DNA of 48,438 bases from positions 1 through 48,438 of the IMG/VR virus record IMGVR_UViG_3300017987_000135; one strand, 5' to 3'. Position numbers and translations under genes: made by a program. Positions 8,546 through 44,709 of this stretch are shown here, piece by piece; within the stretch, counting starts at the first letter, position 1, and each line of letters opens with the position of its first letter. The notes beneath the pieces were generated by a model. The model saw nothing but the letters and a program-made list of their open reading frames with translations. It made no database searches and was not told where the DNA came from. This stretch comes from a virus.

Positions 8546-8979
8546 GCGTCATATACCTCATCGATCCGCCCATCGAATTTGCACTCCAGCAAGAACGTAC
8601 GTTCAGCTTCGCTCTGGATGGCGTGGCGCTGCTGGCCGAACTGGTCCGCCCACCACCAACCATCCTCTTCCCACATCACCCCAGTGTGACCCGTATACGT
8701 CTTCACCACACCTTGAGAAGTCTCTACCACCACTGTCGGCTCCAGCGGTACGACGTGAACCACTTTCGCCGGGATACCGAGCCGGCCGAACACTTCGCAC
8801 AAGGCGTCACGATAGGCCCAGCACCGGTCTGCGGTACGGCCCTGGCTAGACCACACAGGCCACGCCTTCTCACGCAGGAGCGCGGCAGCGTGTGCACCCG
8901 TTTCGGCTTCCTTGACTACGTCGGCAATCGACCAGCCGTTAAAGAACCGTCGGAACCAGGTTTTCAGTGACTCCCACAT
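8542..8979 (-). CDS. Transglutaminase-like cysteine protein
   Basis: 145 aa. I use the ATG that shares its A with the upstream TGA (TGATG), rather than the GTG one codon earlier. The core reads GRTADRCWAYRDAL...LGIPAKVVHVV, closely resembling the Cys-helix of transglutaminase-like proteins (C-x-x-x-A-x-L...GIPAR). A candidate triad is Cys53, His98 (TYTGHTGVMW) and Asp112 (WWWADQFG). Such folds hydrolyse or transfer amide bonds. In the cassette it lies between a secreted protein and a membrane protein. No signal peptide is seen, so it would act in the cytoplasm or in the virion. Activity inferred. Confidence 0.6.
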   Translation of the reverse strand: MWESLKTWFRRFFNGWSIADVVKEAETGAHAAALLREKAWPVWSSQGRTADRCWAYRDALCEVFGRLGIPAKVVHVVPLEPTVVVETSQGVVKTYTGHTGVMWEEDGWWWADQFGQQRHAIQSEAERTFLLECKFDGRIDEVYDA

Positions 8980-28071: not shown

Positions 28072-28106
28072 GCAACCGTCAAGCAAAGTGGAAAATAACG
28101 CTAAAG

Positions 28107-28220
28107 CATGACGCCGTGACACCACTTTTTCCCCCTTATGAACACAAAAGGTATAGGGAATATAGAAAGAGAGAGTGTTCTCTTCTGACAAAGGCAGAAA
28201 CTTGCCGTCACGCCGTCATG
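28107..28220. repeat. Near-perfect 14-nt inverted repeat beside the parS-like site
   Basis: Arms CATGACGCCGTGAC (28107-28120) and GTCACGCCGTCATG (28207-28220) are inverted copies differing at one base, separated by 86 nt. The right arm touches the parS-like palindrome. In the terL-portal gap no coding sequence is seen. Could be paired protein-binding sites. Confidence 0.6.
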
Positions 28221-28240
28221 GATGTTCCACGTGGAACATC
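28221..28240. other. parS: parS-like centromere palindrome
   Basis: GATGTTCCACGTGGAACATC is a perfect 20-bp palindrome. Its core, TGTTCCACGTGGAACA (28223-28238), fits the bacterial chromosomal parS consensus TGTTNCACGTGNAACA exactly. ParB dimers load as CTP clamps at such sites. The palindrome overlaps the last bases of the terL stop region. I see no second full copy and no parA or parB in the window. The match is direct; function is inferred. Confidence 0.65.
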
Positions 28241-31946: not shown

Positions 31947-32140
31947 GATGCGCGCTTCGCTTTAGAGTATCCACAGGCAGGACACTCCCCCTTTTCGACT
32001 GATTCCATTGCCCAAGCTGTTTTGTTCTTCTTCGCGATCTCGCTGAGAAGGCCGGTAGCCTTGTCGGCGTACAACCAGACCCAGCCGCAAGAGGAGCATC
32101 GGAAGCCCTTGTCTCGCGGTGGGTCTGGGATACAGATCAC
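31943..32140 (-). CDS. Zinc-ribbon protein
   Basis: 65 aa starting at GTG with GAGG 6-7 nt upstream. CSSC (residues 15-18) and CPAC (53-56) form a classic two-knuckle ribbon separated by a helix (GLLSEIAKKNKTAWAMESVEKG). Function unknown; nucleic-acid or protein binding is likely. Confidence 0.7.
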   Translation of the reverse strand: MICIPDPPRDKGFRCSSCGWVWLYADKATGLLSEIAKKNKTAWAMESVEKGECPACGYSKAKRAS

Positions 32141-33076: not shown

Positions 33077-33233
33077 TTCTTCCTCTCCTTTCGCAGAGCC
33101 GGGAGCAGAACGTCTCGCCAGTGCTGTGGTTCTTCCTCCAACTGCCGGGCATCGTCTGTCGCATTTTACTACAACAAACGAGCACCCAGCAGGCTGCGCA
33201 CTGGTACCAGACGTTTTGGTTCTCGTCCGTCAC
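33060..33233 (-). CDS. Small cysteine-rich protein
   Basis: 57 aa from GTG at 33233, preceded by AGGAAGG. Cysteines occur as CAACWVLVCC and FCSRLC, giving a possible zinc knuckle. The start lies 5 nt after the basic-protein stop. Function unknown. Confidence 0.55.
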   Translation of the reverse strand: MTDENQNVWYQCAACWVLVCCSKMRQTMPGSWRKNHSTGETFCSRLCERRGRNGNLT

Positions 33234-33237
33234 GGCT

Positions 33238-36800: not shown

Positions 36801-37190
36801 ATGAAAGACACACCTAAGACCAAGAACGACGTACACACGGCAACCTGCCCTGCTTGCTGGTTGCCGAGGTCGGTATGCGACTGCCTGACCGAGGAGGACC
36901 GACACCCCGAGGAGCTGCCGGTTGCGGTGGACGGCGCAGACCCGCAAGCGCTTGCCTGCCTGCGGGCGTGCGAGCGGACGGGCGCGGTTGTCGAACTGTT
37001 CGTTCGGTGCATCGGGATGGAGCTGCACGGGTTCGGGACAGTCGAGTTCTCGACCGAGCGGGACAGCGTGGCGCGTATCACGGTCGCGCTGGACAGCGGG
37101 GAAGTCACGTTCCTTGCTGGGTGCGTGCGGCGGGTTGTCGAGCGGTACGATCGCGAGGTTGGCGTGCTGGTGGACGTGGTAGTGGGTTGA
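36801..37190 (+). CDS. Protein with N-terminal CxxC...CxC
   Basis: 129 aa; ATG preceded by GAGGAG. TATCPACWLPRSVCDCLTEED near the N-terminus looks like a zinc knuckle. The rest is a compact alpha/beta domain (LRACERTGAVVELFVRCIGMEL, RITVALDSGEVTFLAGCVRRVVERYD). Family not recognised. Confidence 0.65.
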   Translation: MKDTPKTKNDVHTATCPACWLPRSVCDCLTEEDRHPEELPVAVDGADPQALACLRACERTGAVVELFVRCIGMELHGFGTVEFSTERDSVARITVALDSGEVTFLAGCVRRVVERYDREVGVLVDVVVG

Positions 37191-44010: not shown

Positions 44011-44116
44011 CGCTCACCTCCTTCGGGCAGTCCGGGTGCGAGGTGGGCCGGTGGTGGTGCACGGCTGCGAACCACATCACGAGCATCAGGCTCGTTAGTA
44101 CTACTGGTACTATCAT
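44003..44116 (-). CDS. 37-aa membrane peptide
   Basis: 37 aa. The ATG shares its A with the upstream TGA (TGATG) and the stop overlaps the following gene start. Hydrophobic helix IVPVVLTSLMLVMWFAAV then HHHRPTSHPDCPKEVSDE. The overlapping longer frame in this region has no coding look. Function unknown. Confidence 0.55.
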   Translation of the reverse strand: MIVPVVLTSLMLVMWFAAVHHHRPTSHPDCPKEVSDE

Positions 44117-44304
44117 CAGTACGCCTCCCCGCGCCGATGGCACTCGGCCCGTTCGATCTCCCAGTCGGCAGGCTCCACATCGTCACGGGCGGAGTCAGGC
44201 GTGTCCTCGTCACTGTCCATCACGCAGTCACACGGCGTTGGGCCGTACGGGGCCTTGGGTGTACCCAGGTATCCTCTGCCTCCGCAGAATCTGCACGTCT
44301 TCAT
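44116..44304 (-). CDS. Zinc-knuckle protein
   Basis: 62 aa; ATG preceded by AAGGAGG. MKTCRFCGGRGYLG has the CxxCxGxG repeat of DnaJ zinc centres, followed by CDCVMDSDED and an acidic helix EPADWEIERAECHRRG. Starts about 20 nt after the tRNA-like element. Function unknown. Confidence 0.65.
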   Translation of the reverse strand: MKTCRFCGGRGYLGTPKAPYGPTPCDCVMDSDEDTPDSARDDVEPADWEIERAECHRRGEAY

Positions 44305-44325
44305 CGTATGCCTCCTTGTTGTTGT

Positions 44326-44394
44326 GCAGGGGAGAGGGGCTCGAACCCTCGACCTGGGCGCTACCCAGCCCATTCCCACTCTGGCATCCCCTGC
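44326..44394 (-). tRNA. tRNA-like element with abnormal anticodon arm
   Basis: On the minus strand: an 8-bp acceptor GCAGGGGA/TCCCCTGC (including G-1:C73 as in tRNA-His), D-like stem CCAG/CTGG or an alternative TGGGC/GCCCA stem, variable AGGTC, T-arm GAGGG-TTCGAGC-CCCTC. Total about 69 nt; the middle is 5-8 nt too short for both a D-arm and a normal 5-bp/7-nt anticodon arm. No encoded CCA (CACA follows). So it is a degenerate, indel-bearing or mimic tRNA. The identity cannot be read from an anticodon. Confidence 0.5.
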
Positions 44395-44550
44395 GGTAAT
44401 AAATGCCCTGGCACCCCATCGCTCACAGCAGGCCGACATGTCTCTCTCGGACCAGTCGGTTCTTCGTGGAAGAAACGGTTACTGTTACTTCTCACCCACT
44501 GTATCGGCCCTTCGCGCTGGTCATGGCGGAGGGATGCCAGGGCAAATTGT
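44395..44550 (-). other. Short non-coding structured region
   Basis: No gene seen over 156 nt between the tRNA-like element and the 52-aa gene. Inverted 13-nt repeats GCCCTGGCACCCC (44405-44417) and GGGATGCCAGGGC (44531-44543) match at 12 of 13 positions and may close one large RNA fold; GACATGTC lies inside. Confidence 0.45.
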
Positions 44551-44709
44551 CTACTTGAACTCGCCGCACGCCCTCGTGGTCGGCCGGATCTCGGGACGTC
44601 CGCCGTCACGCGCCGGGGGGAAGCGGAAGCAGTGGAACTGGTCCGGCTGCGGGTCGGTGTTCTCGAAATACTTGCAGTCCTTGCACGTCTTCCCATCCTT
44701 CGCGAACAT
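44551..44709 (-). CDS. 52-aa cysteine-rich protein
   Basis: 52 aa; ATG preceded by AAAGGAGG. CKDCKYF (9-15), HC and ACGEF form a zinc-ribbon-like set, and the PEIRPTTRACGEF ending is common in small phage proteins of this kind. It is too short for standard ORF limits but has a strong ribosome-binding site and G/C-rich third positions. Function unknown. Confidence 0.65.
   Translation of the reverse strand: MFAKDGKTCKDCKYFENTDPQPDQFHCFRFPPARDGGRPEIRPTTRACGEFK

Follow-up and report, generated by a model that had tools for sequence, protein, structure and literature searches.

The window, a 48,438-nt stretch of phage DNA (IMGVR_UViG_3300017987_000135), carries on its minus strand, at positions 44325-44394, a 70-nt tRNA-shaped element (discriminator base counted in) that, as read from its sequence, is a derivative of tRNA-Ser. 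The serine origin goes beyond the preliminary description, which had rightly located a tRNA-like element at 44326-44394 without giving its strand. The anticodon stem, the long variable arm and every serine identity element that we tested have been lost, and the acceptor stem has been rewritten with all its pairs maintained. The upper half of the tRNA may, we tentatively propose, have been retained because RNase P and the tRNA 3' nucleases act on it; this is the most likely of the readings weighed below.

A tRNA fold with a single central hairpin

The element was delimited by base pairing, folding, a descriptor search, alignment with tRNA-Ser and comparison of acceptor stems. Its full sequence, from 44394 to 44325, is GCAGGGGA TG CCAGAGTGGGAATGG G CTGGGTAGCGCCCAG GTC GAGGGTTCGAGCCCCTC TCCCCTGC A, or, with the arms separated, GCAGGGGA TG CCA GAGTGGGAA TGG G CTGGG TAGCG CCCAG GTC GAGGG TTCGAGC CCCTC TCCCCTGC A. 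The 8-nt 5' strand of the acceptor stem (GCAGGGGA, 44387-44394), the first G of which is a possible G-1, pairs with the 3' strand TCCCCTGC at 44326-44333; all 8 pairs are Watson-Crick, and their pairing probabilities in the predicted fold range from 0.86 to 1.0. A motif scan and the alignment with tRNA-Ser place the D-arm, CCA-GAGTGGGAA-TGG, at 44370-44384, with bases resembling A14, G15, G18G19 and A21. The T-arm, GAGGG-TTCGAGC-CCCTC, was identified from the sequence and the descriptor search at 44334-44350, and its 5 stem pairs are all Watson-Crick. CCA is not encoded; ACAACAACAAGGAGG comes after the 3' acceptor strand. As a whole, the element folds more stably than most of its shuffled versions (z -2.3).

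At the site expected for both the anticodon and variable arms, sequence and folding indicate one hairpin only, CTGGG-TAGCG-CCCAG (44354-44368). It comprises 15 nt, as 5 bp plus 5 nt or 4 bp plus 7 nt, whereas tRNA-Ser has 17 nt and, in addition, a long variable arm. The earlier remark that the middle is too short for a normal anticodon arm is borne out. The acceptor, the variable AGGTC and the T-arm had also been called perfect. This holds for the acceptor and T-stems, and the letters of the proposed variable segment AGGTC are present, but the best cloverleaf uses their AG to close the central hairpin, which reduces the variable segment to GTC.

The element has the 7-bp acceptor and the 5-bp T-arm with a TTCRA loop of a canonical tRNA, but not the 5-bp/7-nt anticodon arm, nor is it recognized by tRNA models. 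ARAGORN called no tRNA at the element and no working tRNA in the window phage. Rfam searches at gathering thresholds yielded no match to it, and RF00005 (tRNA) had no match anywhere in the record. The ARAGORN and covariance-model check advised in the preliminary description found no normal tRNA; the best sub-threshold Rfam match was tRNA-Sec (RF01852), which scored 24.9 bits where 47 are required. A tRNA-Sec identity was rejected on this score and on the wrong D-arm, the 6-bp D-stem, UCA anticodon and long variable arm all being absent.

A descriptor made of the acceptor and T-arm retrieved 1 site in the window (both strands) and none in 300 dinucleotide-shuffled genomes, which led us to reject a chance origin. 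The suggestion of an assembly error was dropped as well, since another contig, IMGVR_UViG_3300017989_000014 (60,867 bp), which begins and ends elsewhere, has an identical 271-bp stretch with the element. The two records differ by 2 mismatches in 9,298 bp and are too alike for purifying selection to be demonstrable from them. Their shared gene coordinates suggest a single genome of ~61 kb seen in two circular permutations; the longer record adds ~13 kb beyond the window, including a 3,871-aa ORF. By protein family matches the phage is podovirus-like, with an SU10-type portal and adaptor, an SSB and a UvrD-type helicase. The exact middle of the element, its exact 3' half and a relaxed short-Ser pattern match only this phage in IMG/VR. 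The relaxed pattern was also absent from 395 genomes of a single bacterial phylum, the one to which a Bacteroidales MAG belongs, and scanning 84,980 bacterial and archaeal genomes for the exact 27-nt 3' half gave no match.

Serine descent and rewriting of the acceptor stem

We scanned the same 84,980 genomes for the D-arm motif GATGCCAGAGTGG-N0-3-GAATGGG and obtained at least 80 loci among the matches listed. All motif-bearing tRNAs called by ARAGORN in the first 80 bacterial loci among these matches were tRNA-Ser (78/78). In global alignments of the element the 12 best-scoring tRNAs were likewise all tRNA-Ser, in a comparison set that is itself rich in tRNA-Ser. The element is derived from tRNA-Ser on the strength of these two results. 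It has in common with bacterial (type II) tRNA-Ser the T8-G9 dinucleotide, the D-arm CCAGAGTGG-GAATGG, the T-arm GAGGGTTCGA..CCCTC and the A7:U66 pair.

The differences lie elsewhere. The gap between GTGG and GAATGG is 2 nt in 64/64 motif-bearing tRNA-Ser and 0 in the element, the D-loop of which is 2 nt shorter, and the spacing from the D-arm to the T-arm motif is 21 nt compared with 36-41 in tRNA-Ser. The element has a possible eighth acceptor pair and neither a normal-size anticodon arm nor a long variable arm. Bacterial serine determinants are G1:C72, G2:C71, G73 and the long variable arm (PMC9976931); instead, C1:G72, A2:U71 and C73 are found here, position 73 being G in 61 of the 64 tRNA-Ser compared. 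The Ser-type D-arm is therefore retained without any of these determinants.

For the acceptor stem, the reference was the common form of tRNA-Ser, and the 64 tRNA-Ser were also taken singly. Relative to the common form, 8 of 14 acceptor positions are changed, compared with 2 of 34 in the D- and T-arms (clustering P 2.7e-4); these two are both in the T-arm (2/17), and the compared D-arm positions are unchanged. Four acceptor pairs are changed on both sides, and all 7 pairs are still paired, an outcome that random substitutions reproduced in simulation with P about 0.001. The nearest of the 64 tRNA-Ser is still at least 6 acceptor substitutions away, all compensated. Such compensated rewriting argues for selection on acceptor pairing at some stage, and the acceptor changes could be earlier than the loss of the anticodon arm. 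They remove the three serine determinants of the stem and leave G-1:C73, a determinant of tRNA-His that is expected by chance in 1 case in 4. That pair had been noted before as His-type; the pair is indeed there, and its label is possible for a feature that may be fortuitous, on a body that is Ser-type and devoid of the GUG anticodon of tRNA-His.

Genomic setting and possible roles

The element sits in a 246-nt non-coding gap between two small Cys-rich ORFs of the minus strand, at 44551-44709 and 44116-44304, and by codon score none of the reading frames between them is coding. The upstream ORF (52 aa, CKDCKYF...) has a positive codon score. The downstream ORF (62 aa, CRFCGGRGYLG...PCDC) has AAGGAGG ahead of its start, which lies 20 nt past the discriminator base of the element. 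It had been described as a zinc-knuckle gene; a Cys-rich ORF does follow, with a CxxCxGxG...CDC pattern, yet it has no Pfam or PHROG family match. Promoter-like or terminator-like sites were not found near the element.

Just upstream lies a structured non-coding stretch (44403-44544, minus strand) with a 14-bp closing stem, TGCCCTGGCATCCC/GGGGTGCCAGGGCA, predicted to pair with probabilities of 0.87 to 1.0. Its fold has a z of -5.8 and was not equalled in 200 shuffles; of the 964 folding windows scanned, the one over the 150 nt preceding the element ranks first. Rfam holds no family for it, and searches of DNA collections gave no match in phages; in plasmids the only match was partial, over 32 nt at E 0.5. 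It is possibly a phage ncRNA outside known families. A short A/U-rich linker (44395-44402) leads directly into the acceptor stem, and both the linker and the trailer 3' of the element are unpaired in predicted folds. Elsewhere in the window, strong folds occur in or near gene gaps at 33090-33235 (z -4.5), 28090-28235 (z -3.9) and 31996-32140 (z -3.5), all on the minus strand, and a 21-nt overlapping palindrome, 86% complementary, lies at 36935-36964 within a block of plus-strand genes.

RNase P binds and measures the TSL-acceptor stack (PMC4919913). As the parts that it measures are kept and the linker and trailer are predicted to be unpaired, we favour use of the element as a processing tag between the structured RNA and the next cistron. 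The phage would have acquired a tRNA-Ser gene that then lost its anticodon arm, long variable arm and serine identity elements and retained the upper half of the L, that is, the acceptor/T stack and the elbow bases of the D- and T-loops. The second, unrelated phage described below, with the same upper half, counts in favour of this reading. Host RNase P, gauging how far the acceptor end lies from the elbow, would make its cut at the 5' end of the element, and the 3' end would be trimmed by tRNA 3'-end nucleases. Cleavage would part the stable structured RNA from the downstream Cys-rich cistron, which, once freed, would begin with an unstructured ACAACAACAAGGAGG leader. Transcription, cleavage at both ends and a benefit to the phage are what we infer here; retention of the upper half is in itself no proof of such a use, because RNase P cuts ordinary tRNAs too. 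If the element is processed, a DNA phage could use no more than a tRNA's upper half as a signal for cutting or for end protection, of a kind that standard tRNA finders overlook.

Nearly as likely, and the main rival, is that a tRNA-Ser gene carried by the phage is decaying as a relic: its anticodon and variable arms would have been deleted, and the remaining stems would not yet have mutated. A donor is available: terminase-related phages often have ordinary tRNA clusters upstream of the terminase, tRNA-Ser included, which makes a phage source plausible. The lack of a working tRNA in the window phage and of an encoded CCA would also fit decay, as would a second truncated element, described below, that resembles a similar collapse without a stable central hairpin. 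On the other hand, the acceptor and T-stems are perfectly paired despite the compensated substitutions that separate the acceptor from each of the 64 tRNA-Ser. The element is also far from the terminase-side clusters of its kin and adjoins another strongly structured RNA. The preliminary description had offered a decaying tRNA or a mimic: descent from a tRNA stands, through the Ser-type D-arm, and the compensated acceptor argues for selection at some stage. If it is a relic, the element records the collapse of a phage tRNA-Ser with its upper half still paired.

Among 50 records of terminase-related phages the element was absent, the one RNA-model match being an ordinary tRNA-Met. Two such phages carry a conserved tRNA-Ser(UGA) with an odd D-arm, GTGC-AGG-GCAC (L174, 480-565, and L176, 485-570, both plus strand), for which the nearest Rfam match is tRNA-Sec, below threshold. 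An 8/5 reading of these two was rejected because the eighth pair would use the discriminator G73, with CCA next.

A tRNA mimic or decoy seems improbable. On this view the acceptor and T-arm would act as a 13-bp minihelix with G-1:C73 that HisRS charges or to which some tRNA-targeting enzyme binds, and anticodon nucleases would find no anticodon to cut. HisRS does charge 13-bp minihelices with G-1-C73 (PMC9976931), the identity pairs and discriminator for serine have all gone, and tRNAs help some phages evade tRNA-cutting defences (PMC11555353). However, G-1:C73 may be a matter of chance, CCA is not encoded, no known partner gene lies nearby, and an element that lacks the anticodon loop would not serve well as bait for anticodon nucleases.

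We give slightly less credit still to a structured operator, in which the element and the upstream fold would form a leader that regulates the Cys-rich cistron after it, with autoregulation or a pairing switch as conceivable mechanisms. The proximity of the start codon would suit this, as would the capacity of the 5' arm of the upstream stem to pair with the 5' strand of the tRNA (duplex -23.8 versus -30.0 kcal/mol); a 10-mer common to the upstream stem and the element in inverse orientation is weakly significant (40/2000 shuffles). The switch was nevertheless rejected, being unfavourable by more than 20 kcal/mol with the 3' arm blocked, and the Shine-Dalgarno sequence is outside the element.

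Serine tRNA genes are common integration sites, and a U33-AGC loop can be drawn on a 4-bp/7-nt arm, but a phage attachment site, an assembly artefact or a working mini-tRNA with anticodon AGC is very unlikely, given that no integrase family was matched among the 56 proteins scanned and the 3' half lacks an exact host match in the 84,980 genomes, that two assemblies agree, and that the stem and variable segment are too short to decode.

A second truncated element and known tRNA relatives

With a second Ser D-arm subtype we found another truncated tRNA-Ser-type element, at 8561-8628 (plus strand) of L226 (IMGVR_UViG_3300028832_002324), a contig unrelated to the window phage that bears a putative tyrosine-integrase gene. 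Its 7-bp acceptor, D-arm and T-arm are intact around a 16-nt unstructured middle; Rfam scores it as a tRNA at 41.6 bits, and ARAGORN rejects it. Both elements have kept the acceptor, D-arm and T-arm, with 36 nt between acceptor and T-arm in each, and have no anticodon or variable arm. The L226 element differs in its 7-bp acceptor with one G-U pair, its D-arm subtype and the absence of a central hairpin. To judge from their sequences, the upper half of the tRNA is retained and the lower half lost in both phages. It is conceivable, if rather unlikely, that phages repeatedly pare tRNA-Ser down to the upper half of the L and retain it for transcript processing or for charging, as a class of modules that tRNA finders miss; these two would be independent members. 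L227 and the T-arm matches examined in other phages turned out to be ordinary tRNAs.

Among known RNAs, allo-tRNA-like and tRNA-Sec-like tRNAs are relatives of tRNA-Ser with a lengthened acceptor branch, some of which have G-1 and are unusable in translation (PMC7609411). The element resembles them in its serine kinship and lengthened branch. However, these relatives retain their anticodon and variable arms, and allo-tRNAs are defined by a 12-bp branch arranged as 8/4 or 9/3 and a long variable arm (PMC7609411), whereas the element is 8/5 and both of its lower arms, anticodon and variable, have collapsed. With the tRNA-His minihelix it shares a 13-bp acceptor/T stack with G-1:C73, on a Ser-type body without the GUG anticodon and with charging only putative. 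RNAs of the mascRNA/MALAT1 type are eukaryotic tRNA-like RNase P substrates within long transcripts; while processing of the phage element is conjectural, in both cases a tRNA-like fold is placed where structured RNA meets other sequence.
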